Made by a program: the position numbers and the translations under genes
Source: Saccoglossus kowalevskii
Lineage: Eukaryota > Hemichordata > Enteropneusta > Harrimaniidae
NCBI RefSeq assembly: GCF_000003605.2
Contig: NW_003124913.1
Coordinates: forward strand, 289,866 to 326,616
Direction of reading: 5' to 3'
Length of the DNA stretch: 36,751 bases
Part shown: positions 789-21,810 of the stretch, one piece after another
Numbering within the stretch: the stretch's first letter is position 1
How the letters are laid out: the number at the start of each line of letters is the position of its first letter
The notes under the pieces: generated by a model
Told to the model about the DNA's origin: nothing
Databases searched by the model: none
Seen by the model: the letters and a program-made list of their open reading frames with translations, nothing else

Positions 789-957
789 ATGGAATATTCA
801 TCGAATTCGAATTGTATATATGACGCACCGAGTCGCACTGGAACGGTTGGTGACTACATTCATGCGAAGTCAACAACAGGAACAATGACGTTGAATCGCC
901 CATCTGGCCTTAGCTCTATTGCGGACATAGCTGTGTGCACTTACCTGGTAATAATGT
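789..957 (+). CDS. Opsin exon 1: extracellular N-terminus and start of helix 1
   Basis: Encodes residues 1-56 plus the first base of codon 57. ATG at 789 directly follows an in-frame TGA, which favours this start. Met33 is the only later in-frame alternative before helix 1. About 43 polar residues precede the hydrophobic run that starts at SIADIAVCTYLVIM. There is no N-x-S/T glycosylation site in this tail, which is unusual for an opsin. The donor TGT/gtaagt at 957/958 leaves a single T. It joins GT of exon 2 to make Cys57 and completes a continuous helix 1. This phase match is the main evidence for the exon, which is far (3.4 kb) from the next one. Confidence 0.8.
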
Positions 958-3900: not shown

Positions 3901-6900
3901 ATGACACCGTTGGGATCCCCTACTGCTACTGCATTGTAATATGTAGTAATTAAATAAAAACATGACTCTTCATTTAATGTCGCCATTTCAAGCAGCTTGG
4001 ATACCACGATGTAGATCATTTCGCCACAATTTCAACTAGCCTACTAGGTCGACCTAGAGCAATTATAATTACAATTTTGGCGATCATTGTGTCAACTAAA
4101 ATAAATATTCTGCCTGTAAAACTAACCGAACAACAGCCACTATTTACAACTCACAAAAAACGCAACATTGTAAGGCAAACATTAACATGTGCTCAAACAA
4201 GTGTGCAAATACCCAATGCACCCCTAGCCTAGTACGAATGCTCAATATTGATGTGTGGTTCAAAGTATTACATAAATTCAATACACTTCTAATACGAATG
4301 CTTAATATTGATATGTGGTTCAAAGTATTAAATATATTTCATGTGTTATTTCAGGTACATTGTCACTTTTAGGCAATATAACTGTTCTAGCTGTGAAAAT
4401 AAAAAACAGAAAACAGCTAAGAACACATGACTATTTAATTGTGAACATCGCCATTGCCGATATTGGTGCCGTTACAACTGGTTATGTTTTTGCAGCAGTT
4501 TCAGCCTATAAGCATATGGTATGTAAATCAATCTAATTGACCTTTTTTTTCGTAGTTCAATTTATGCTTTACCATTCCATATACAATCGTATATAACATA
4601 AGGATGTAGACTATTATTCACATACAATAAATTGTTTACATTGTATACCTTACCCAACTAATTACCCCCACAGCTCAATTAAAAAAATGGTATTTCTACA
4701 GGCTTTAGTAGAGATAAAATTGGAACCACAAATGTAAATATTTAACATATTTTTTACAGCGTTTTACAACAACAACAACAACCTAAACTTATTCATGTTT
4801 CAGTTATATAAACACCAACATATCATTGATCAATGCAGCCTTAAAATCGAAAAAAATATGCACGATGCCGAGAGAAAAGGAAATATTACTTGAAAAAAAC
4901 AGATCTCGACAGTCATTAGCGTTTGGAGTATCGGCGAATGCAGTCTCCTCAATGTAATCAGCAGCATGATTATCGAATAACCTTGGGCAATATTGCAATT
5001 GAAGTAGTTTTGGATCATCGAAAATATCATTTACCAAAGCAGTACACAGTCAAACTATCTTCTTTTCTGCACTGGTCTTCCCAGTAACGACTACACGATT
5101 GATGATGTGATGCACAATAATGAATGAACTTTTTAATTATTCGAATAAACAGATTTCATACATGAAAATACTACTTCGTAATGTTGTTTATATTTTACCA
5201 GAAAGTCAAGTAACGTATCCATGTCATATATATGTTATGAAGAGGTAAACACGCGTTATAACAAGGTTTCTTTTTTTTATATTTTAAGTGGTATTTTGGT
5301 TCCATTGGATGTTCGTTGGTTGGATTTTCTGGTTGGTTTTTTAACTGTGTCAGTATGGTATCATTGTCTGTCATCGCTATCGTGCGCTATTTATTAGTGA
5401 TTGGCCATCAAGGTAAGTACTATCATCCCACGTGTTTCCTAATAATAATGACTGCCAAGAACTTCAAACACAAACAATGGATCGTCGTAGCTAGCTGCCA
5501 AACATTTTAGTACTGTTTCGAATGTATAAGAATCTCACTGATATGTGGTTCTTCATACAGAAAACGCAATTATTTCGTTTCGTATATACATATATACGAG
5601 GCTACAACAATATACACTGAATACATTTATATATGAAAATATGTGTTATTTCTTTCATTTAGTTGTTTTTTTTTCATTTCCTATCATTTTATGTTTATGT
5701 GTTTGTAAATGTGTCTGTAGTTTAGATTACAACTAAGACAAAATATGTGCTTCCCTTTATAATATAAATTGGTTAACGCTGTAAACATACAATCTCAGAC
5801 ATCTAAAGATTTTACTGTATATTAGAAACTGGATCACGCTGTTCAATTCCAGCCTTGCACGTGTAGGCGTTTTATTAAAGGTACTCAACTATTAACTGCG
5901 TGGTGAATTGATCGTGCATTGCATATATATGTATGACTGACTACATTACGACTGACCGGACGAACGAGCCAGTGAATGAGCATACGCACACACACAAACA
6001 AATAATCGACAGAATTTTAATCTATTGCACAGTATGGCATTCGAATTATATTTGAATTGGCCTCGGCTGCAAATGTTCATAAAGTTGGGGAAATTATTTC
6101 TGAGAAACACTTTATCTCTTAACTTTGTTGTACATTTAAATCGGGGGAGTCGTCACCTGCGCATGCGGCAGACGGCCATAGACTGTCGTTGTTTACAAAC
6201 AGGCGTCTACCCATAAACCTTTGCGCTTTTAACTTGCGTTGTTATCTTCGCTTGGGACTCAATTATCGCGCATGCGGAGGTGACGATCCCTCTGATTTAA
6301 CACAGTGTGTACCAGTAAAAATATTACTATAGTAAAGCCATGTAATTAATCATACTCTGACTCATGTATTAGTTTAAACTATCAATATAAATTAACATAA
6401 ATATGAAAATCTCTTAGAATCGATGGACGATATCACAGTCAACTGGCACACGCGTTATACTAAAATAAATACGATGTTTACTATATGGGGGCCGCCATTT
6501 TTAAATGTATCTAAGAATGTGTATACAATAATACATGAACGGTTTCATGTCCTACTTCTCACGTAAAACACTCTAGATTACAATATTTCTAAACAAATTA
6601 ATTAATAGTAAATTGTTTAGAAAGAATATAATTAAATAAAATTATAAAGAATAATAGGCGGTTTCTGTTTTTTTTTCAAACTAGTCTAGTCTGTGATCCT
6701 GCCATACTGTATAATTTCAGTGGAATGTGTGTCTACGTACAACAGTTATGTGTTAATCTAAACTTCAAAACTAAACGCAAAATTTCCAGTGTTATAATCC
6801 CGCGGATTTAAAGTTATGTTAGTTGTGTGTAAGATGTGTCCTTGTCACATGGCGAGGTTGGTAACTGTGGAGAATAAGTGGGAAATAATCCAAAACTTGC

Positions 6901-7863
6901 CGTGAAAAACGGTCATTCTTGAGGTCACAAAATAAAAACGACGTGTGAAATTTACAGAGATAATCAACATTTTTTTAGTTTAAAAATTGGAAGATTTTGA
7001 GAACATAAATTACTCGGACGATCGTGGAAAATCATTTCCCCAGATTTCTATACAATGGCTTAGATGGGGTAAGATTAAACTATTATACTCCATAAGTAGG
7101 ATTGGTTTATCAATGCTCAGTCAATTAGTGAACCAAACACAAAAATATTTTCTCCGTTTTCACAATCCTTTGTGAGGGTTCATTTCTATATAGTTTGAAA
7201 GTCACTGTTAAATACTATTGTAACGAATTGGTGGCGACTGGTGGCAACCCTCTGCATGTTTCTAGTGAAAAGCCTATGTTTAGTGTTAATGGATTTTATC
7301 ACAGCTTTGGTTATCTATGGTTTATTAATTGAATAAGGACGCCAGCGAGTTGATTTTATTTAACGTACTTCGAAACGAAAGTCGATGAAAGACATTATAA
7401 AAGACCGAGTAGGCAACACTTTGGTCAACCGTATCGCATGGAGTGCCACCGAACTGTAAACTGTATTAGAAAAGTCAATATGTGAAACAATTTGTATCAT
7501 AACCGAATTCATTGAAAAATAAGATATTATATTATGTCTTAATAAATGTAGCTACAAATAAAGTGTATTTTGTTTGAGATTATTGCATAGAGCGTTCATT
7601 ATCAGATCAGTCAAATACATTATATAAACATTTAGCATGCACAAAGCTATGTAATTTACATAATAAACTAAATATACAAAATCAATCAAAAAGATAACTT
7701 TGCTGGCTAATAACATAATGTAATAAATTTATATCAAAATAATTGTAAGTTCTCACTGAATTATTTTAAATTATAAAAAATTCTCTCCGAGTAATATAAA
7801 TCATTATAAACACCACCCGAATTGGGAATATCGAGTTCTTCAGCATTTAAATTCACAACCGAT

Positions 7864-7959
<96 letters not shown>

Positions 7960-10900
7960 TTATAATATGGGATGACCAGTTTTTTCTATGGCCCTTGGAT
8001 GTTTTCCATTCAGAAATGCATAAATTTTTGTGAGGAGAGGAACGTGGGTTTGGAAGATAGGTCTGAACATTTCACTTAAATACAAAGGCACCAAACCGTT
8101 GGTTGCCATATACATAATTATACCTAAAAAATATGAAATTCTGTAATCAATAGCAAGATACTATGATTTTTGAGCAACTAAAACGACGATTAGCTAAAGT
8201 TATCAGAGGTTCATCAAATACACAACTTGCTTTCTGTCAGATAAATAAGAATGAAACCATATAAGGGCGATTGGAGAAATGCCATAAGTTGAGAGCTTAT
8301 TCAATAATATGTGTTTATCTACTACATCAAACGCCTGGTCAAGGAAAGGCAAACCATACAATAAGCCATCATCCATATTGCTAAGCAATGCATCACACAG
8401 CTTAATCATAACTGTATGGCAAAAATGTGATTTTTGAAAACCAAACTGCGTTTTAGAAATTAAATCATGACTATTCAAATTATGGCCTAAGTGATTAAGC
8501 ACGTGTTTTTTCAACGATTTTTAAGATTATTGGCAGCAACGAAATAGGACGATAATTACACGATAAGTCATAGGACCCACCCCTTTGTAATAGAATAACT
8601 TTGGCATGCTTAAACATGTCAGGCGAAATACCTGATAAAATACTGAGGTTGAATAAATAAACAATATTTTCACAAATGAACGAGCGGAAATACGCAAAAG
8701 TCTAGATGATGTATTGCCAAGATCAGCAGACTTAGAACTCTATAGCGAGAACAGTTGGTCTTTCACGGACTGGTATAACAAATGATCGAGTATTGGTCAA
8801 TTTGGGTTCAATAAATAAATATGAGTCTCCCACTGAAACATTGGGTCTTAACTTGTCGGCAACCTCATGCGAACTGTGTATTAAAATTATTAACATTTTT
8901 TCGAGGTTATTGCTAACTGAACAATGATTTTTGAGAGAGTTAGACTTACCATCACTGATACAATCGTTCGGATTTTCCACACTAGTGATCTATTGATTTT
9001 AATCAGATGAATATAATCATTTGTCTTAGCGGCCTTGATTAAATTAACTACCACATTACGTTATATTGGTTTAGAACAGTAACATCGCCAAAATGCGTGC
9101 AAGCCTCCGAAGATTGTCTCTTTCTCTATTTTTAAGTAGAATGTCGTATTCAGCCAACCACACGTCTACAAACAAATTGGGCATGCGAATCGCAAATAAT
9201 ATTGAAAATAGAATACCATTTCTCAAATGCTAAAAATATTGTGTACAGAAAGTAGAAGCGCGTTCAAAAAGTCAGCCACTTAAAGACTCGACGAACACTT
9301 TGTAATGTCTATAGCAAATAAAAACATGGTCATTTGATTGAGGGAAGGAGCGGAGTTTACGAACCACGAAAATAGGGTTAATGGTCCGACATTTCCAAAT
9401 TATTAATGAGAACCAAATTAACATTTTCATTACAATTAACATAAACATGGTCCAGACAATTACCGGACGCAGGCCTCGTAAAATCATTTATGATTTGAGT
9501 AAAGCCTAAATCAACTAAAACAATAAACAAGCAGTGAGTACAATTAGATTGAACATCATATTAAAATCACCAAAAATATATATATATATTTCTTTTCCTT
9601 CTAGGTAAGTTTTTTTTCAATGTTATGAGCTAACATCACATCTATGCTATGAACAGTACTTGGAGGTCTATAAACGCCACCAAGTAAAATAGAAGTTCAC
9701 CTTGGTAGAGTTAATTTTCAATCCACATAATTTCATATTAGGTCAAGTATACAACAGAAAACAAAATCAGAGATGATGAAAGCCACAAGACCACCGATAA
9801 ATTGAAACCATTGATATAAAACTCATTGTCATGATCAGACGAACAAAAAACGCGTCGACTTGTTTTTTACAATCAGCAGTAATTATCAAATTAAGCTCGT
9901 CAATTTTGTCATTAATAATATTAATAAACCCACGCCTCAGACCATTCTGGAGGTTTGAATTATTCGCGAAATTGCAATTGCCGAAACATCTGGAGTAGCT
10001 AGAAACGGCCGTCACATCATGGCCGGATACCTAAATGTTACAGTATTTCTGCTTGTGATCCGTTTTCTCACAACTCCAACATGGAATACCTTTATTTGAC
10101 GACATACGCGAACATTATGGCCTGCCTCGCCGCAGTTGTAACCCCTTACGTCGCTACTGCTGTGCTGCTATTACGTCGGTGTGAACACTTGATGGATCGA
10201 GTGATAGGACACATGGCGTTAAAATTTCCCATCATTCTATCTGTACCCCTGGCATTCAAATGAACCTTATCACAGTATAAATTAGTTACGTAATATTGTG
10301 CCATTGTCAATAACAGATGCACAATTGTTTTCCGCCACGAGTCGAAGTGATCGGTTTCATGAATTCACAGCACAGCACAGTAAATGGTCGTCTCTTAGAC
10401 ACATACTGGAAATGAAAATCGTGATTGCTGGATTAATAGCTTTAACCTTGTTTACGGATGATGAACATTTGGTAAAGATGTCATGTTCAGAAATGAAATT
10501 ATTAACATCATTAGTTCCACAATGAATGATAACCGAGTCGTTCTTTGCAATCAATTCAGACATATTGTCAATACACCTTGGAAAATCAGCCCCTGACATG
10601 GCAATAACTTCGGTTTTGTGTAATCTACTTGATTCAATATCACGGAGAAGTGAATCTCCAAAAATAATTGAATTAAGCCTATCTGATTCAGATTTATTTG
10701 GCGGAGCATGCGGTGGAGAATGAGTGACTTCACAGTGCTCTTCAGAAATACCAGATGGTACATTTTCCATACAGCCATCGTTAGAACTAATCTTGGATTT
10801 CCAAATCTAGTATACATTTGTTTTACTGCACAATTATGTTACCAAAAGCTTCCAATTGCTTTAGTAGAGCATCGATTATAACTGGGGGTACAGGTGGTGT

Positions 10901-13900
10901 AGCATCTCCGTGGCCAACGACAGCGGCAGTTCAGATGCTATTGGTAAGAATGGTGGTCGCCATGGGTGAGGTACTTTCAGAAAGGACACCTAATCTAGGC
11001 TGATTGCAAGATATACATAGTAGATAATCAGCTTTGCTCAATTTAACTAACCTTGGGTCATCATTACTACAGTCATTACACTTTATTATGCGATGATACG
11101 ACTACACTGGTTGAACACAAACAAGAAGGATTTCTCAGCACGCAACATTCAAAGCCTATCCATCTATAGTTAGTAAACTGTGCAATAAATACTCATAGAA
11201 AAGCTCTCTATGATATGATCTTCAAAGGGCATGGTAATTACCAATTAAACCGCACTCATATTTTGCACTACTGATTTGTCGGAATACCACCAAACATGAC
11301 TGGAACACTTGATTCCGAGTAATTCCCCCAGTACGTGTTGTACCAACAGCTGTCCCCTTACAGTGCAACATCCTCCATAACTTGATGACTCAGTCAACAC
11401 ATAGAATTTGTCTCTCTGACTGACTGAGCTAAGCAGCTCATGGGGGTTTAGCCTAGAAGATTATGAATATAATGCATATATCAGTTGTACTGTGTCATCC
11501 ACATCCAGGACCTTTGTGTTTGTTCATCACTCCTGTGGCCACCTAAATAAAAATGTACATAACACAATTATGTAGCAAACACCACACAATTTAAACAGCT
11601 AGTACCGATATAGGTCTGGGATTTATTGAAAGCTATATATATTGTCTCTTTCGTAGGTAAAGAAACATAAATAAATAAGCAGGAATAATTTAAAATATTG
11701 GTTTTATATACATCCCAAGCTATACAAAGTTTCTAGAATTACAAACAGGAAAATAGCAGTATGAAATTGTAGCTCTGAATCTCAGGAATCAGAAAATCTA
11801 GAAAGGTTAAAATAGTGAGGCGAAACAACACACCTAACTACAGATATCTAAGTTGTACGGATAAATTCAGTCTAAAAACACTATCGAAAATACTGACTAT
11901 TTAGTTTGGACCATTTCATAAACAATACAATAATTTACTCTTCAAAATCCTCAGTTAACAACACTTTACCAGAATAATAATTTGACCGAGTAATTGTTTT
12001 GTCTTGGATGCCACTATTTTTATGTTTTTTCAAACATGTTGATTGTTCGTACTGGACGCATGGTTGACTAATTTAAAACAGGTAATATTGAGGGATAGTG
12101 TTAGACATTGTGGGAGATTCATGCAAAATGTTTTAGCATAATTTTAACCTTGAAAATTATATCAACTTGGCATTATGTTATAATTGATAAGATTGCCAAG
12201 TTTGTAAATAATTAATATATTGATATGGGGATATGTAAGATGTTAAGTGACATTTCACCTATATTTTGAAAAATGTACATACAACACATGCCAGAATTTA
12301 ACTTAATCCCACAACCTTGTGAAACTTTTCATTTTTTATACCATTTGTAGTTTTAGTTTGGCTTCTTTATATCAATGCTAGTGATACATAAACACTTTAG
12401 AAGAAAACATTTAGTAGAAAAGTGTTTTAGTTATTCTCATGAACACAAATGTGCCTTATACATTAATAATTTGCGAAACATCTATAGTCTGTTTTTTGGG
12501 TTGAAACACGATTGGTAAATTTGCTTTCTGAAGTGTTTCAAACAGTTTCAGCGAAAAATGTTTAAATCAAATGTTAAATATGTGATTCGAACTACAATTA
12601 CCGTTCACCAAATGCGAAGTATCAAAATACGTTAGACCATGAGATTACTCAATTCACCACGTTTCTCGATTTCTAGTTTAACGTAAGACAATATAGGTTG
12701 GTACGACAGCGTACATACAATCAATTATTCTAAAACCTAATGATTGTCATTGTGATTGTCTAGTTAGCATATATACCATAATGTTTACTTACGAGTCTAC
12801 AGACATTTCACTTGATTTTAGTAATACTGCTTGCATAAAGTTGTATGCATTATTCCATAAATGTTCCATTCATGACAGATTTATGTCGCCACAAAGCATT
12901 GTGTATTTTTGCGTGTTTACAATGTGCTTAATTTCCATAAAAAGTGTTTAAATAAGTAGAACACTACTGTTTTGACAGAAATTACAGGTTTTTTATTATA
13001 AAGTACACATGTTCATAATTACAACAGTGTGATTTCAATTCAAACGGTGTGTTTTAATTAAAGCATGAAAATGCTTCCAAGATTTACTGTATACTAATGA
13101 TTGACTGTGAAGTTAGTGCATAGGTATATGATTTATATACAGTATGCTTCAGTCAATTTATACATTTTATACTTGACAGTAAATTCAAAACTCTACACTT
13201 AAATATCAATTGATTGATAGGATTATGCAATTATTTTATATGAATAACATGTGATTGTTATTTGTGTATTTTACTATAAGAAAATATGATGGATCTGTAA
13301 ATACTAAACGCAAACGAATGATAACCAGTTGCATTGTACCTATTATTACACATTAATTGAGGCTATGTCAAGCTGTCATATCAGGGCAGTGCATCATAGC
13401 GTGACAGGAAGAGTGTTTGCTTACATCGGCTTTGAGTTCGAAACTCGTGTTTTGTGTATACCTGTAATTTATATTGCAACCTTAGCCCATTGACTAATTG
13501 GAATGTTTTGCTTCAAACACATATAATACAACTGTGACAAGTGCTAATATTATTATGCATGATTTATTAACAAACACATTGCAGAATTAAACTATTCATT
13601 TTTATATAACCGTTTTGGTTAGACTCACAGCATCAGACAATCATTGTTACGCAATGAAATTCGTAGATATCCACGGCTATAACATCAAATTCACAATAGC
13701 TAAAACTATAAATTTACAGCATGAGGTAATCACTGTTACACAGTGAAAAACATAGATGGCCAAAGCTATAACAATAAATTCATGGATGACTAAGGACGTA
13801 GATTCAAAACATGAGGCAATCACTGTAACACAGTGAAACTCATAGATGGCCAAGTTGTGCATGTACCATGTGCGATAATCTCTAATTAGTATTGAATTAT

Positions 13901-15402
13901 ACTGATTTAGACTGTAGCACGCCGATTGATGTTTTGATTATATTGCAATACTTATAATTCATAATTATAATCGATTTAGAATATTTTATACTAATCTTGT
14001 CTTAGTATTGTGATATAGATTATACTATTTAGACATAGTTTCAACATTTTGGCTTAGTTTGTAGCATACTATTTTCGTTATCGTAGTATATTGATTTTAA
14101 TTTTAGTCTTCCCATTCTCTTTGAATAAGTCGAAGTCGGCTTAATCAGCTCCAGTGATTTTCAGCTGTAGTAGAAATGTTGTGTTTTTGTTAAAGTACAT
14201 CTCCCTATTATTCAGGCGTGTATCATTAAATAGGGTGCTGAAATGTTATTGTGAGTGTGATATGGTTAATGTAATAGTTATACAATTATTTTCAGGAACT
14301 TACGTAAAAACGAAGACGCTAGCTGTTATAATTGCCATAATATGGTTGTATTCAGCATTTTGGGCTACCGTACCTCTGCTAGGATGGGACAGGTTTGCAT
14401 CTTTTTGGTTCGCATTATATTTTTGTGCAGTAAAATGTATATTTTGCAAAAAACAGGAAACACTATAAGTCACCCAAATAGGCTGGTTGACAACAATCTA
14501 TCGTTTGTTTTCATAAATAAAATAACCAATGGGCAACGTCTTCACAGCAGATCTCGAGCTGAAGCTGATCAGGGACCGATATTTGTACATCTGCATTCTG
14601 GTTGGTTGGTAAAATGTAATTACTATTATCTGAAATAAAATTGTGTGATCGAACGGATATAATATTGCTTCTGGTGACGTTCAAACAATTGTTTCATTAA
14701 TACAGATATGTCCCAGAACCTCACCTGACATCGTGCACGTTAGACTGGACAAGTAACCAACCAGCTGATATCGCATACATTGTCTGTATATTCGTTCTGT
14801 GCTTTGGATTTTGCTTGATAGCAATCATATACAGCTATGGCGGCATTATCAAAAAGGTCAAACAAATACAACGCCAATTACACCCAGATGGTCAACAATC
14901 TGAGATGAAAAAAGAAGGAAAAACAACCAAGGTATCGCAAAATATTTCATATATGTATGACAACTGATAAAATTTACCCTTGTTTTCCCGTGATTATTAA
15001 CTACCTTATATGGCCTGGTGTTTATTAGTCGGCAAAATGCTAATCGTTGTCAGAATAACATTTCACCATTTACCTCTGCTTCTTGTTTGCAGCTTCTAAA
15101 TCACAGTTTCTGATGTTGTTTTGGTTTATTTTCAGATGCTTGCCATCACCACAACGTTTTACCTTGTATCTTGGTCTCCATATGCAGTGTTGTCATTATA
15201 TACCGTCATACAAGGTAGCGCAGATGATATTCCCGTCGCAGTGACGACTTTACCAGTTTTGTGTGCCAAGTTTGCATGCGTGTACAGCCCTCTTATATAT
15301 TATATCACTGATGGGGCGTTTCGGAAATCAGTCGGTACACTTTTTCACAGTATTCGCGCACTGTGTTGTGTTAATCGAGTGACACCGAATGCGGTAATAT
15401 AA
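789..15402 (+). CDS. Opsin, peropsin/neuropsin-like (group 4), six coding exons
   Basis: Join of 789-957, 4355-4518, 5289-5412, 14296-14392, 14706-14931 and 15136-15402 gives 348 residues, a normal opsin length. The product is a retinal-binding seven-helix G-protein-coupled receptor of the plasma membrane. Visible landmarks: GN in helix 1 (N64), NIAIAD in helix 2 (D92), C119 and C195 for the conserved disulfide, E189 at the bovine Glu181 position, SWSP in helix 6 and CAKFACVYSPLIYY in helix 7 with K305 as the Schiff-base lysine. All five introns are GT-AG and every split codon closes. The loop 2 stretch PEPHLTSCTLDW resembles neuropsin (PEPFGTSCTLDW), and the helix 1-2 and helix 3 regions resemble peropsin/neuropsin. 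Oddities: VRY (143-145) replaces D/ERY, V122 sits at the Glu113 position, and SPxxY replaces NPxxY. The exact subfamily is inferred from remembered motifs. The opsin identity is firm. Confidence 0.93.
1331..1486 (+). repeat. Diverged tandem duplication in intron 1
   Basis: Two segments, about 1331-1383 and 1428-1486, share TCACAGTGTTT(T)AAAAAT, then a TTGTG and AACATATTTT block, and end in TTGACAA. The spacing is about 97 bp. The second copy carries several substitutions and small insertions, so the duplication is old. Confidence 0.55.
4231..4330 (+). repeat. 60-bp direct duplication next to the exon 2 acceptor
   Basis: GAATGCTCAATATTGATGTG at 4236 recurs as GAATGCTTAATATTGATATG at 4296. Both copies run on to GGTTCAAAGTATTA. 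The period is 60 bp. The second copy ends only about 25 bp before the exon 2 splice acceptor, so it occupies the region where the branch point would lie. Confidence 0.85.
4355..4518 (+). CDS. Opsin exon 2: helices 1-2
   Basis: Residues 57-111, entering in phase 1 after tttcag and leaving on a codon boundary at ATG/gtatgt. It carries the GN of helix 1 (G63-N64), a basic first intracellular loop (KIKNRKQLRTHDY) and NIAIAD of helix 2 (D92, the sodium-site aspartate). It ends at HM just before the WYFG of exon 3, matching the HRW-FG junction of neuropsins. Confidence 0.95.
4519..5288 (+). other. Opsin intron 2 (770 bp)
   Basis: Donor gtatgt and acceptor ttttaag, which uses AAG rather than CAG. 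No element or gene is recognised. Overlapping minus-strand reading frames at 4804-5037 have no recognisable content. Confidence 0.85.
5289..5412 (+). CDS. Opsin exon 3: helix 3 with VRY motif
   Basis: Residues 112-152 plus one base of codon 153. WYFGSIGC places C119 at the disulfide position (bovine Cys110). Three residues on, V122 occupies the bovine Glu113 site, where group 4 opsins usually have Tyr. SVIAIVRYLLV aligns to the AxxxDRY region with Val143 replacing the acidic residue. The reading is open and the donor is a good AAG/gtaagt, so the Val is not a product of a bad boundary. Confidence 0.95.
6137..6302. mobile_element. MITE-like element with about 30-bp inverted ends and TTAA flanks
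   Basis: The left end reads TTAAATC then GGGGGAGTCGTCACCTGCG and CATGCGG. The reverse complement of the right end reads TTAAATCAGAGGGATCGTCA then CCTCCGCATGCG. The two match over about 30 bp with a few changes. TTAA at both borders is what a piggyBac-like transposase would leave as target duplication, an inference from the family. The interior is about 100 bp and non-coding, with a subterminal AGACGGCC/GGCGTCT pair. A related half copy lies at 30337-30400. Confidence 0.7.
7866..7962. repeat. (ATTT)n microsatellite, LINE tail
   Basis: About 24 nearly perfect TTTA/ATTT repeats. On the minus strand this is an AAAT tract lying immediately 3' of the CR1-like LINE. It is therefore probably the short tandem tail that CR1/L2-type elements carry in place of poly(A), later expanded. 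Confidence 0.95.
7985..8130 (-). pseudogene. LINE ORF2 C-terminal end
   Basis: The minus-strand peptide containing NGLVPLYLSEMFRPIFQTHV matches the usual end of CR1-type ORF2 proteins (G-xxP-x-YL-xxxF...H). It lies only about 70 bp after the last reverse-transcriptase block, far closer than in an intact element, so the YxDD box and thumb are missing. Confidence 0.6.
8203..8565 (-). pseudogene. LINE reverse transcriptase, partial and frameshifted
   Basis: NYRPISLLPIILKIVEKT (about 8565-8510, minus) is the classic non-LTR reverse-transcriptase block. After a frameshift come QFGFQKSH and FLDQAFDVVDKHILLNKL, equivalent to the LDLSKAFDxVDH block with the first catalytic aspartate, but two residues shorter than usual. 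WFHSYLSDRKQVVYL follows. The upstream minus-strand frame at 8980-8732 fits the linker before the reverse transcriptase. Confidence 0.85.
9272..10015 (-). pseudogene. LINE AP-like endonuclease, decayed
   Basis: The start reads KIDELNLIITADC then DAFF, the usual N-terminal NKIDEL...ITE block with a frameshift afterwards. Near 9470-9380 another frame reads NCLDHVYVN and then SDH followed by a stop and PYF. SDHxPI is the catalytic-histidine motif of these endonucleases. The segment between is broken in several frames, so no active enzyme is possible. Confidence 0.7.
10215..10770 (-). pseudogene. LINE ORF1 SGNH/GDSL esterase domain
   Basis: The open minus-strand frame 10770-10357 contains IIFGDSLLRDI (catalytic Ser block), then IIHCGTNDVNNF (GxND block). 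After a frameshift, DKVHLNARGTDRM (about 10280-10240) supplies the Asp-x-x-His block. All three catalytic blocks of an SGNH hydrolase can therefore still be read in order. In CR1-type LINEs this domain belongs to ORF1. Several plus-strand reading frames here (10298-10723) are only its antisense. Confidence 0.8.
10805..11090 (-). pseudogene. LINE ORF1 zinc-finger remnant
   Basis: The minus-strand frame reads KCNDCSNDDP, 17 residues after the second Cys, then LLCISCNQPRLG, giving C-x2-C-x17-C-x2-C, followed by a low-complexity linker with one stop and a short hydrophobic end. A PHD-like finger before the esterase is the expected CR1 ORF1 layout. A stop lies just upstream of the finger. Confidence 0.6.
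11105..12410. other. No gene recognised
   Basis: AT-rich, no long reading frame and no repeat I could pair. The part next to 11100 may be the 5' untranslated region of the LINE, but no motif proves it. Confidence 0.5.
12415..12665 (-). repeat. Dispersed repeat, copy A (inverted relative to 22145-22385)
   Basis: The reverse complement contains TTTTGATACTTCGCATTTGG, TAAGGCACATTTGTGTTCAT and GATTTAAACATTTTTCG. All have near-identical counterparts in the same order at 22145-22385 on the plus strand. Similarity runs for about 230-250 bp with small indels. No terminal inverted repeats or coding content are apparent, so this is an unnamed interspersed family, possibly a MITE or SINE. Confidence 0.8.
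13385..13450 (+). mobile_element. tRNA-derived SINE head or tRNA pseudogene
   Basis: TAGCGTGACAGG (13397-13408) resembles the polymerase III A box. AGTTCGAAACT (13435-13445), inside GAGTTCGAAACTC with a perfect 5-bp stem, resembles the B box. The spacing is about tRNA-like. The acceptor stem does not close, so it is not a working tRNA. Confidence 0.45.
13630..13858 (+). repeat. Tandem repeat, unit about 90 bp, 2.5 copies
   Basis: GCATGAGGTAATCACTGTTA (second copy, 13719) recurs as CATGAGGCAATCACTGTAAC at 13810. A more diverged first copy starts at 13630. Each unit includes a small palindrome of the form CACTGT-TAC-ACAGTG and a CATAGATGGCCAAAG-like segment. A minus-strand frame through it is periodic because of the repeat, not because it is a gene. 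Confidence 0.85.
14296..14392 (+). CDS. Opsin exon 4: helix 4
   Basis: Residues 153-184 plus two bases of Arg185. GTYVKTKTLAVIIAIIWLYS gives the end of loop 2 and helix 4 with W169, and ATVPLLGW leads to the second extracellular loop. The donor GACAG/gtttgc is weaker than the others but the phase closes with A of exon 5 to give Arg185. Confidence 0.93.
14393..14705 (+). other. Opsin intron 4 (313 bp)
   Basis: Begins gtttgc and ends atacag. Reading frames that run through it from exon 4 have no opsin similarity. Confidence 0.85.
14706..14931 (+). CDS. Opsin exon 5: extracellular loop 2, helix 5, loop 3
   Basis: Residues 186-260. YVPEPHLTSCTLDW holds E189, six residues before disulfide C195, the spacing of bovine Glu181-Cys187. 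DIAYIVCIFVLCFGFCLIAI is helix 5 and IIYSYGGIIKKVKQI its cytoplasmic end. A lysine-rich loop 3 follows, with E255 at the position of bovine Glu247. Ends on a codon boundary at AAG/gtatcg. Confidence 0.95.
14932..15135 (+). other. Opsin intron 5 (204 bp)
   Basis: Donor gtatcg, acceptor ttttcag after a T-rich tract. Phase 0 on both sides. Confidence 0.85.
15136..15402 (+). CDS. Opsin exon 6: helices 6-7 and C-tail
   Basis: Residues 261-348 and TAA. LVSWSPYAV is helix 6 (CWxP version SWSP). LCAKFACVYSPLIYY contains retinal lysine K305 and, six residues later, the SPLIY form of NPxxY. The next tripeptide is DGA where bovine has NKQ. The tail is short (about 30 residues) with CC at 337-338, candidates for palmitoylation, and few Ser/Thr for arrestin control. 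Confidence 0.95.
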   Translation: MLAITTTFYLVSWSPYAVLSLYTVIQGSADDIPVAVTTLPVLCAKFACVYSPLIYYITDGAFRKSVGTLFHSIRALCCVNRVTPNAVI

Positions 15403-16946: not shown

Positions 16947-17430
16947 GGTAATTGTCGGTTCTCAAGAGGCCAGGATTATAATCAAAGCAAAATACTTTTG
17001 ACATTTCATCTGAACTGGTTGCTAATGAGTACTATCAGATCGTGCACTATATAATTGTCGTCCGCGAATTCCATTTACAAATTACTAAAAAAAATGTTTG
17101 TTGTTATTCGTTATTATTATAGTATGTTTTCAAACAAGTCAACTAGCAACTTCATTTCCCTATATTTCTTGATTGCCATTGTCAGGTAATTGTCAGTTCT
17201 CAACAGTGGGTGATCTACATAAGGTCAGGATTACAATCAAAGCAAAATACTTTTGACATTTCATCTGAACTGGTTTCTAATAAGTACTATCAGATCGTGC
17301 ACCATATCATTGTCGTCCGAGAATTCCATTTACAAATTACTAAAAAAAAATGTTTGTTGTTATTATTATAGTATGTTTTCAAACAAGTCAACTAGCAACT
17401 TCGTTTCCCTATATTTCTTGATTGCCATTT
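16947..17430 (+). repeat. Tandem duplication, two copies of about 238-246 bp
   Basis: Copy 1 runs 16947-17184 and copy 2 runs 17185-17430. Both begin GGTAATTGTC, share CAAAGCAAAATACTTTTGAC and CATTTACAAATTACTAAAAA, and end TTCTTGATTGCCATT. They differ by a few substitutions, an insertion near the start of copy 2, and a short deletion in the TTATT run. High identity suggests a fairly recent event. Confidence 0.93.
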
Positions 17431-19388
17431 TGTTGTCAACATTTATGTCAACAATACAGTGTATGATTATTCTAGTAGTAAGATGTCTGCTTCAGCCGAA
17501 TACTGAAAAATGACATTAATGGGTTGTTGAAACTAGTGTCAGTCTATACACCATGAATTGATGCCTTGAGCAAAGTACGTGTGTACTGTTTATTAAATTT
17601 ATATGAAGCATCCATGCATTACCAGTACAGATTAAAAGGATAGCTTAGTTAGTTTGTGGGGTGGGGGTATAGTTGCAGAGCAAGAATTTTGCTTGTGATA
17701 GAACCGCAGGCTAAATGCAACGTGTCAGTGAACTCACCATTATGTGTTACCGGCATAGCGACAGTATATTAAATGTAACGTTCACGATACAAATAATACT
17801 GTTATAGACTGTGATGTTATTTTATAACTGGCTGCTTGTGTCCCTGTAACATTTTTAATGATTGTTGATCAAATTATAGATGACTTTACCTTTTAATTGT
17901 TACGGCTGAACTTATATACAGACATGGTGACTGTGTTGTGACATTGTGCACTCTCGTATGAAATCGGAAGACATCGGTATCCCCGGGCTACCTGCCACGA
18001 TGATTTATTTTAGAGCTGCAGGGTAAGACGTGAAAATAAGCCAGAAAACGCTGTAGGCAATTCCTGTTTATAATTATTATATACTATATAATTAAACTAC
18101 AAGTGCATGTACAGAACACGATATTAATGAGATATCTAATCTTTCATAGCGCACCTGACATTACAAGACTTATCTTCTCTCAAGTGACTCGTGTGTTGTT
18201 AAAATAACAATCCTTGAGCACATCACTGTTTTATTGCACTGTGTAGCATTTTATGTGTACACACAATCTTTACTCAAACGTTGTTATTTCACAAGAGTAA
18301 GTGAATCACCGGACGTAATAAAAGACGTCATCCAACGGAATATAATATAACACAAATAACGATGCAGCAAAGTACACCATAAAATTAATTAATACATAAT
18401 TCATCAGGATTACATGACATATTTATAGCTCCTTTCAATAAGAATGTCATATTTCTAATAGGTGTTTGTACAAACTGTAATATGATTCGATGATTGTGTC
18501 TGAAAATGACGTCAGAGTATATAACATTACACGCAGACGTACACGTCAACTTGTGTTACAAATGAGAAAGTTTACTGTAAATTGTGTTCATCACCATTCT
18601 TATTTGATTAACAAAACTGTCACGATATATCGCCTACCTACGCAGACGGGCAATGTCAATGTTCAACAATTATAGTTTTAAACTATACTACTATTACTAT
18701 CTTAGTAAAAAAAAACGCGCATTTTGTGTAACAATTACGCAAATATCGATATTTAGAATACGAAATGTCTAACCATCTACTAATTGAACATATATTGTTG
18801 AAAAGGTTGTCAACTTTCAAATGTATTCAAATTGAACAGTAATCAACGACTGTTGAAGTCTGTGGGAAAAGCTCTCGCTTTCTATCGATTTCAACATAAT
18901 TAGTGTTCATTCTGGGACTCATTCAAACTTCCTTTCACTATTATGCTAACAAAACATAACACAGTCCGATTTATTATGAATGAGTTATGTCATTAACCTT
19001 GCTTGTCAACATAGCAAATATGAATGTAACATGTTATCTTTCAACTGTATAATACTACACCTACACAACCAATCTATTATACATTAATTAGTGTTTACAA
19101 TTACTGATAAATACTGAATACTATCAAATACTATGCTATCAAACATATCCTGTAAATACGCCCTGAGACTTTTATAAAACAAATGTTCACATTCGTGATT
19201 TGGGTGGGATCTTGGAATAACAGAGTGCATATGATAGTTTCTGTCACTGTATGTGCAAATGTTGTCATGCACTTCAATCCTCTTGTTTTGTTTCATATTG
19301 GGTTACATCTTATTTTCGTCGATTGTAGATGACAAATATATTACACAGATGCACTACAGCTCGATAATATATTTAAACGAATTTTTTC
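17431..19388. other. No gene recognised
   Basis: The reading frames at 18490-18675 (plus) and 19084-19296 (minus) are short, begin without context and match no family I know. Nothing else stands out. Confidence 0.5.
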
Positions 19389-19494
19389 CCTGTGTACATT
19401 TTCTGAATCACACCATGTGTACACTTTCTGAATCACCCCTTGTTTACATTTTCTGAATCATAACTTGCATACATTGCCTGAATCGCCGGTTGTA
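19389..19494 (-). repeat. 25-bp minisatellite, four units, inverted orientation
   Basis: Four degenerate units of the form TACATTTTCTGAATCACnCC. Their reverse complement is the unit of the much longer arrays at 20855-21425 and 21545-21810. So the same satellite sits in both orientations about 1.4 kb apart. Confidence 0.88.
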
Positions 19495-20854
19495 TAAAGA
19501 TTACATTTCTGATACTAAACTTCTTCATTTAACGTGCTCGTATTTAATGACATACATGACTTTTTGGTAGTGATACACATCTGTTTAGTATGTGAACAGA
19601 TATATTTTAAGTGTGACAGAATTTGGCTTCAATGCCACCATGTATGTGTTGTATTCATTCACCAACAACCTAAGTCTTTTGAAAAATCGTACGAGTAATG
19701 TTGAACAAATAGCATTCTAACAAACGCATTATTCAATTTACACTATACAACATCGAATTAATTTACTTGCCACTCAGACAGACACTATCTATCTAGATGA
19801 TTGCAAAGTGTTAAATTTACACAAAGAACCATAATACTTGGTTGGTTGGGCTCGTTTCACCCATTAACCTTTGCATTTTCAAGGCGCAGTTGTACTAACA
19901 AAACGTGCCAAAACGTAATACTGCCTTTTGTTGTTTTCCGTTAGTTAATGAGAAGGAGTAGTCAGGGCACGATCATCAAAAGAGGTCAATAGTCTGTCGC
20001 TCAACGGCTACGCAAATAGAAACGAATGACGACGTTAAGGGAAAATAAAGTTGTTTTTGTGTGGTTTCAATTTATGTATAACATAAATACATGTCAGTAA
20101 TATGCACGAATTTCAGGTGATTAAAAAAGGGAAATTTACGTTTTTTACTAGAAATAGAATGAAAGTTCCATTTACAGTACAAAATAGGTTTCTACATTTT
20201 ACAGTTAAAGCAAATTATATTTTGCATTTTTATAATATATTTGATAATTTGTGTTTAAGAATCAAAATTTGAATTTACGTACGAATTTCGACATTTAATG
20301 TGGGAAATGCTTTATACGCTTATAAAAAATAAGATCTTTGTACAAATTACAGACGAATACAATAGCTGATTACATTTCTCACCTTACCCATGTCTTCGAA
20401 TTTATATTTTTATTTAAATTACATCATCAGGAAAATAAAAACAATTGATTAGAGGTTACGAAAATACCCTTTGCCGACCCTCATACACACACGCGGGAGT
20501 CACAAATCGAAATATTTTGCCAAATCTGATGTCATTGCACAATTAAGGTAGCCGTATTGTAGTGTAATTACATAATAAACATGGGTTATGTTGTACTATT
20601 GATCATACCTAAAGTTTCAGAGAGGTAGTTTCTGATTATACTAGAAATCAAGAGTGCAAGAGTACAAGAATGGGAATAATTGTCAATTATTGCTAAAATA
20701 CTAGTCTGAGTTTAATTAGCAGCATGTTGACATGACAGAACAGCTTAAATATCGGTTCAATTTCTCACCTCAATGTTTTCATAATAAGCACAATTTTAAA
20801 AACTGCCATGCAATACAAGCTAGCGCATTTGCTTACAATATAGCCATATTGCAC
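19495..20854. other. Spacer between oppositely oriented minisatellite blocks
   Basis: No gene or pairable repeat found. A short ACCCATTAACCTTTGCATTT segment near 19859 faintly resembles the interior of the MITE (ACCCATAAACCTTTGCGCTT near 6209), too short to call. Confidence 0.4.
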
Positions 20855-21425
20855 GGGGTGATTCAGAAAATGTACACACGGGGCGATTCAGAAATTGTAC
20901 ACATGGGGCGATTCAGAAATTGTACACATGGGGCGATTCAGAAATTGTACACATGGGGTGATTCAAAAAATGTACAGACGGGAGGATTCAGAAAATGTAC
21001 ACACGGGGTGATTCAGAAATGTACACACGGGGCAATTCAATAAATGTAACATGGGGCGATTCAGAAATTGTACACATGGGCTGATTCAAAAAATGTACAG
21101 ACGGGAGGATTCAGAAAATGTATACACGGGGTGATTCAGAAATGTACACACGGGGCAATTCAATAAATGTAACACGGAGTGATTCAGAAAATGTATACAC
21201 AGAGTGATTCAGAAAATGTACACATTGGGCGATTCAGAAAATGTACACACGGGGTGATTCATAAAATGTACACACATGATGATTCAGAAGATGTACACAC
21301 AGGGTGATTCAAAAAATGTACATACGGGGCGATTTAGCAAATGTACACATGTGGTGATTCAGAAAATGTATACACGGAGTGATTCAGAAAATACACACGG
21401 GGCGATTCTGAAAATGTATTGAGCA
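20855..21425 (+). repeat. 25-bp minisatellite array, about 23 units
   Basis: The unit is close to GATTCAGAAAATGTACACAC followed by GGGGC. Units are 24-25 bp and vary mainly at the A run and at CACACGGGG/CACATGGGG. Blocks of several units also recur as higher-order copies: the block near 20940-21030 is repeated near 21060-21170. The open frame at 20732-21043 is made mostly of the repeat. Confidence 0.95.
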
Positions 21426-21544
21426 CATTGTAAAAACATAAAAATACACTATATACACGCGATGAATCGAAGCCTAAAAGATGTGATTACGAGAGTGTGC
21501 ACAAATAATGATTAAATTGGATTTAGAGGATACAATAGATGAGT

Positions 21545-21810
21545 AAGAATGTATACAAGGGATGATTCAAGAAATTTATACACAGGGTGATTCTGGAAAT
21601 GTATACACGTGGTGATTCTGGGAATGTACACACAGAGTGATTCAGAAATTGTACACATGGGCAGATTCAGAAAATGTATACACGGGGTGATTCAGAAATG
21701 TACACACGAGGCGATTCAGAAAATGTACACACGGGGCGATTCAGAAAATTTACATATAGGGCGATTCAGAAAATTTACACATGGGACGATTCAAAAAATG
21801 TACACACGGG
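21545..21810 (+). repeat. Second block of the 25-bp minisatellite, about 11 units
   Basis: Same unit as the preceding array. Both blocks end in the same non-satellite flank, GCACATTGTAAAAACATAAA then A/G-TACACT (21423-21450 and 21810-21837). The block plus its right flank was therefore duplicated as one piece. Confidence 0.93.

Follow-up and report, generated by a model that had tools for sequence, protein, structure and literature searches.

Two chicken members of the Opn5 group signal through G proteins although they lack the acidic residue of the E/DRY motif. In Opn5L2 the motif reads IRF, and the receptor activates a Gi-type G protein; its authors expect some agonist-independent activity, and mutation of the acid in rhodopsin-family receptors leads to constitutive activity (PMC3279408). 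Chicken Opn5L1, with VCC at the same place, is active in the dark with all-trans retinal and is inactivated by light (PMC12579811, PMC5871776). In Opn5m, Thr 188 supports bistability, and the T188C mutation results in exclusive all-trans binding and photocycling (PMC8766551). Residue 188 is described as generally Thr or Ser in bistable opsins, and as Thr or Ser in Opn5L2. Peropsin, RGR and retinochrome are grouped with the neuropsins in the tetraopsins (PMC9368030), and derived NPxxY motifs are found there, namely NAxxY in RGR and VPxxY or YPxxY in retinochromes (PMC9368030; PMC8628405). Chimeric spider peropsins are dark-active, and the native form is described as causing no considerable second-messenger change.

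Departures from DRY are also known from other opsins and other class A receptors, where Asp 3.49 occurs in 66% of receptors (PMC3414077; PMC12462484). In the brittle star Amphiura filiformis, 6 of 13 opsins carry derived DRY-like motifs (PMC4289182), and scallop r-opsins have DRY, DRF or DRC (PMC10733189). The D3.49V mutation makes CXCR2 constitutively active (PMC3414077), and HHV8 ORF74, a natural combination of VRY and VPxxY, shows high basal signalling (PMC12462484). Restoring Asp at 3.49 of ORF74 changes little, and conversion of NRY to DRY increases constitutive signalling in M33 and leaves it unchanged in R33 (PMC3414077). Such variation among receptors (ORF74, M33, R33) counts against a simple DRY-lock rule. 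In keyword searches of an open-access library we found no opsin with VRY, which is weak evidence of absence; the VRY described there is that of the viral receptor (PMC3414077).

The window analysed here, a stretch of 36,751 nt from Saccoglossus kowalevskii, contains one convincing gene, an intact six-exon opsin on the + strand (789/885-15402; Table 1). All of its introns are GT-AG and the frame is open through the stop at 15400-15402; the exon borders were placed at AG/GT sites that restore the frame, and the open frame is thus partly a matter of border choice. Translation from ATG 885 gives 316 aa; the in-frame ATG at 789, directly 3' of a stop at 786, gives a form longer by 32 residues (348 aa). 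Among 15 listed candidates for exon 1, the one at 789-957 shares the most hydrophobic end with one other and has the better donor of the two. The spliced product matches the 7tm_1 model (PF00001) with 144.7 bits and an E-value of 4.7e-42 (cut-off 30.5), the single Pfam family at E <=0.001, and among proteins of solved structure it scores best against bovine rhodopsin (E 6.6e-35, residues 18-296). No match to Rfam families and no tRNA was found in the window. The minus-strand open frames within intron 3 are perhaps remnants of a decayed LINE.

Table 1. Features of the window opsin gene and other elements of the 36,751-nt window
Feature	Position	Strand	Description
Exon 1	789..957	+	N-terminus and start of TM1; ATG 789 or 885; donor T/GTAAGT; phase matches exon 2
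Exon 2	4355..4518	+	TM1-TM2, GN1.50, D2.50; 164 bases, as in the paralog
Exon 3	5289..5412	+	Cys3.25, TM3 with IVRY; in frame, ag/gt flanks; 34/41 residues identical to the paralog; WYFGSIGCSLVGFSGWFFNCVSMVSLSVIAIVRYLLVIGHQ
Val 3.49 codon GTG	5382..5384	+	In place of Asp/Glu; identical GTG in the paralog
Intron 3	5413..14295	+	8883 bases (1550 in the paralog)
TTAT array	7865..7961		97 bases, inside intron 3
Open frame in intron 3	8203..8520	-	Sub-threshold match to reverse transcriptase (E 0.041)
Open frame in intron 3	10357..10806	-	Sub-threshold match to GDSL lipase (E 0.011)
Exon 4	14296..14392	+	TM4; 97 bases in both copies
Exon 5	14706..14931	+	ECL2 with PEPHLTSCTLDW (E181 counterion position, C187, T188), TM5, ICL3
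Exon 6	15136..15402	+	TM6-TM7, SWSPY, Lys7.43 codon AAG at 15268, SPLIY, TDGAF, short C-tail, stop
Direct duplication	~16970-17130 and ~17225-17440		Downstream of the opsin gene; near-identical; found by eye, limits approximate
Tandem array	19391..19484		Period 25, TGTGTACATTTTCTGAATCACACCT; looks like the 20852-21810 repeat unit on the opposite strand
Tandem repeat	20852..21810		25-base unit, ~38 copies, consensus CACGGGGTGATTCAGAAAATGTACA

Residues were assigned by alignment to the bovine rhodopsin sequence, most of which is also contained in the structure match. Position 3.49 is Val within IVRY (residue 111 in the form starting at ATG 885 and 143 in the form starting at ATG 789), and the acid of D/ERY is absent. 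The NPxxY region reads SPLIY (residue 279 in the 316-aa numbering), with Ser at 7.49, and the NKQ region (bovine positions 310-312) reads DGA within TDGAF (residue 286). Other switch and scaffold residues are kept (N1.50, D2.50, R3.50, Y3.51, Y5.58, W6.48, P6.50, P7.50 and Y7.53), as are the retinal Lys 7.43, aligned to K296, and both Cys of the disulfide pair (C3.25 and C187). Of the counterion positions, 181 is Glu and 113 is Val, and the counterion is presumably E181. Position 188 is Thr (TSCTLDW), as in the Opn5m/L2 type; Thr also occupies this position in the RGR, RRH, OPN3 and retinochrome references and is therefore not Opn5-specific. At 6.30, aligned to E247, the window copy has Glu, which could hold R3.50 despite Val 3.49. 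The human OPN5 reference has DYK in the NKQ region. Since, in addition, the NxQ triad has been described as c-opsin type (PMC4289182), the lack of NKQ is unremarkable for such an opsin.

A paralog lies on the same contig at C1748:219679-223479, ~67 kb upstream of the window gene (the window being C1748:289866-326616). It is the one relative found in the readable part of the 12 contig stretches searched, bases 1-199865 lying outside them; stretches L013-L018 consist of N entirely, L012 and L010 contain 6928/10000 and 4902/10000 N, and L009 and L019 contain 1752 and 1510. Further copies could be present in the N-rich stretches, in bases 1-199865 of C1748 or elsewhere in the genome. Five exons of the paralog were found (164, 124, 97, 226 and 267 bases), corresponding to window exons 2-6 and having AG/GT borders, which were set with the window gene model as a guide. 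None of the candidates for its exon 1 was convincing, and L010, which together with L011 holds the paralog, is the stretch with nearly half of its bases N.

Over 291 codons the two copies share 207/291 residues and 78.9% of bases, and their differences fall 56/37/91 on the first, second and third codon positions. The NG86 method gives dN 0.167, dS 0.595 and dN/dS 0.28 (200 bootstraps: median 0.287, 5th value 0.188, 196th value 0.425), and YN00 gives 0.181, 0.479 and 0.38. Purifying selection has thus acted, on average, between the two copies; the ratio is a gene-wide average over the joint history of the pair, which neither tests site 3.49 nor isolates the window copy. The 3.49 codon is GTG in both copies, and the adjacent Arg codon differs silently (CGC and CGT). 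Because both have the same Val codon, V3.49 probably predates the duplication and has been kept in each. The paralog has NPVVY and DET where the window copy has SPLIY and DGA (paralog TM7: NPVVYYITDETF), and Gln at 6.30. Ser 7.49, found in the window copy only of the two, was probably gained there after the duplication, a direction of change that we infer.

These data confirm what the first-pass annotation had read from the window, namely Val143 in place of the D/ERY acid, the retinal-binding hallmarks, and SPxxY and DGA; the one related gene found has Val, and not Asp or Glu, at 3.49. Its picture of a cytoplasmic face altered at three sites holds for the window copy, while V3.49 alone of the three is common to the paralog. 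Its implied rarity was overstated: because the Opn5 group already has members without the acid, in Opn5L2 (IRF) and Opn5L1 (VCC), which still activate G protein, the finding is less unusual than was suggested, and 6 of 13 brittle-star opsins, as described in the source cited above, also have derived motifs.

Placement in the Opn5 (neuropsin) group is a lead from sequence comparison. Against an uncurated set of seven reference sequences without a Go-opsin, an invertebrate neuropsin or an Opn5L, the window opsin scores 183 bits with OPN5, 144 with RRH, 133 with OPN4, 129 with bovine rhodopsin, 124 with OPN3, 96 with squid retinochrome and 92 with RGR; identity to the human OPN5 reference is 36.7% over 289 positions. 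In a maximum likelihood tree of nine rows built with the same references, the window gene and its paralog join OPN5 at 90/95, below the star level (95 and 80); half of the inner branches (three of six) are open, and the tree carries a warning for long branches.

PF00001 was also run against the 572-Mb assembly (4830 contigs) with introns ignored, giving 713 first-look candidates, of which 147 were scored, and 149 listed matches. The eight best of these 149, selected by score and not a random sample, have DRY (8/8) and NPxxY (8/8), with Tyr, not Lys, in the 7.43 column. Contig C593 holds 5 of the 149 listed matches, three of which are interrupted by one or two stops, and is perhaps a receptor cluster with pseudogenes. 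Pattern scans of prokaryotic and viral contig collections (26 and 4 stretches) yielded no relative.

We favor, at somewhat better than even confidence, the reading of the window gene as a bistable, probably Gi-type-coupled signalling receptor of the Opn5 group with raised basal activity, and not as a photoisomerase. The chromophore, bistability, coupling and basal activity are what we infer from the conserved residues and from described relatives. Retinal would be bound at Lys7.43, E181 would serve as the counterion, and Thr at 188 would probably make the pigment bistable. Coupling would proceed via the intact R3.50, Y5.58 and Y7.53, probably to a Gi-type protein by analogy with Opn5L2. Loss of the 3.49 acid may free R3.50 and bring the receptor nearer to the active state, with raised basal or all-trans-retinal-dependent activity as the predicted outcome. 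Val 3.49 would have been fixed before the local duplication and retained in both copies, and Ser 7.49 in the window copy may be a later adjustment of the TM7 switch. The suggestion of unusual coupling or higher basal activity made in the first-pass annotation is plausible by analogy with acid mutants of rhodopsin-family receptors (PMC3279408) and with D3.49V in CXCR2 (PMC3414077).

A receptor of the Opn5L1 kind, active in the dark with all-trans retinal, would account for the same Val, as Opn5L1, which all-trans retinal activates, likewise has Val 3.49 (VCC), and the dark activity of chimeric spider peropsins points the same way. We consider this unlikely, however: the window opsin has Thr at 188 and not the Cys of Opn5L1, the residue that in Opn5m T188C leads to exclusive all-trans binding, and the native spider peropsin is described as lacking a considerable second-messenger change.

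The photoisomerase-like role proposed in the first-pass annotation would make the gene an RGR- or retinochrome-like opsin that no longer signals through a G protein, with relaxed cytoplasmic motifs. Derived NPxxY motifs in RGR and retinochromes, the Gly at 3.49 of the human RGR reference, and SPxxY in the window copy are in keeping with it. We nevertheless hold it to be quite improbable. RGR, at 92 bits, and retinochrome, at 96, score lowest of the seven references (OPN5, 183), neither the SPLIY of the window copy nor the NPVVY of the paralog is the NAxxY of RGR, SPLIY is not the VPxxY or YPxxY of retinochromes, and the switch residues R3.50, Y5.58, W6.48, P7.50 and Y7.53 are intact. The similarity scores and the tree, both of which favor OPN5 with these references, led us to put aside a photoisomerase by family.

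Alternatively, the window copy might be a decaying duplicate, in which V3.49 was inherited and Ser 7.49 drifted in after loss of function. Its intron 3 of 8883 bases, compared with 1550 in the paralog, the sub-threshold transposon-type frames and the restriction of Ser 7.49 to this copy would fit such decay, but the gene has no stop or frameshift, its splice sites are canonical, its retinal-site residues are kept and dN/dS between the copies is ~0.28 (over their joint history), so that we regard decay as very unlikely. A simple pseudogene was rejected, as was a sequencing error, on the intact frame and the shared codon. The Val codon does come from a single assembly, but an assembly or sequencing error is scarcely credible because the codon recurs in the paralog, which lies outside the window and shares 79% of its coding bases.

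With V3.49 in both copies and S7.49 in the window copy only, the locus allows the effects of the two changes to be told apart. Loss of the acid in the Opn5 group was already known; what is new is VRY, in which RY is intact, and a sister gene that has this change on its own. Hydrophobic residues at 3.49 occur in several Opn5-type opsins (IRF, VCC and, if the placement holds, VRY), and if such changes are recurrent in signalling lineages, the group would be a natural test of how far the DRY lock is dispensable. It is a speculative and rather doubtful extension that a duplicated neuropsin-like pair fixed Val 3.49 with RY intact and that one copy then lost Asn 7.49, arriving at VRY plus SPxxY with strong dark or basal signalling, convergent with the highly active viral VRY plus VPxxY receptor; the sister gene on the same contig, altered only at 3.49, would then be a built-in control.

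Compared with known systems, the window opsin resembles HHV8 ORF74 in combining Val 3.49 with a non-Asn residue at 7.49; ORF74 is a chemokine-receptor homologue with Cys 6.48 and Ser 2.50, and the likeness is a functional analogy only. Derived residues at 3.49 or 7.49-7.50 also occur in peropsin (RRH), RGR and retinochrome, with which the window opsin has lower scores (144, 92 and 96 bits) than with the OPN5 reference (183 bits). With Opn5m it shares Thr at 188. Its closest likeness is to the vertebrate Opn5 group, in particular to Opn5L2 and Opn5L1 in the hydrophobic residue at 3.49; overall similarity, among the seven references, is best to OPN5. Compared by motif description and not by sequence, it differs from Opn5L1 (VCC) and Opn5L2 (IRF) in keeping both R3.50 and Y3.51 and, in the window copy, in SPxxY.
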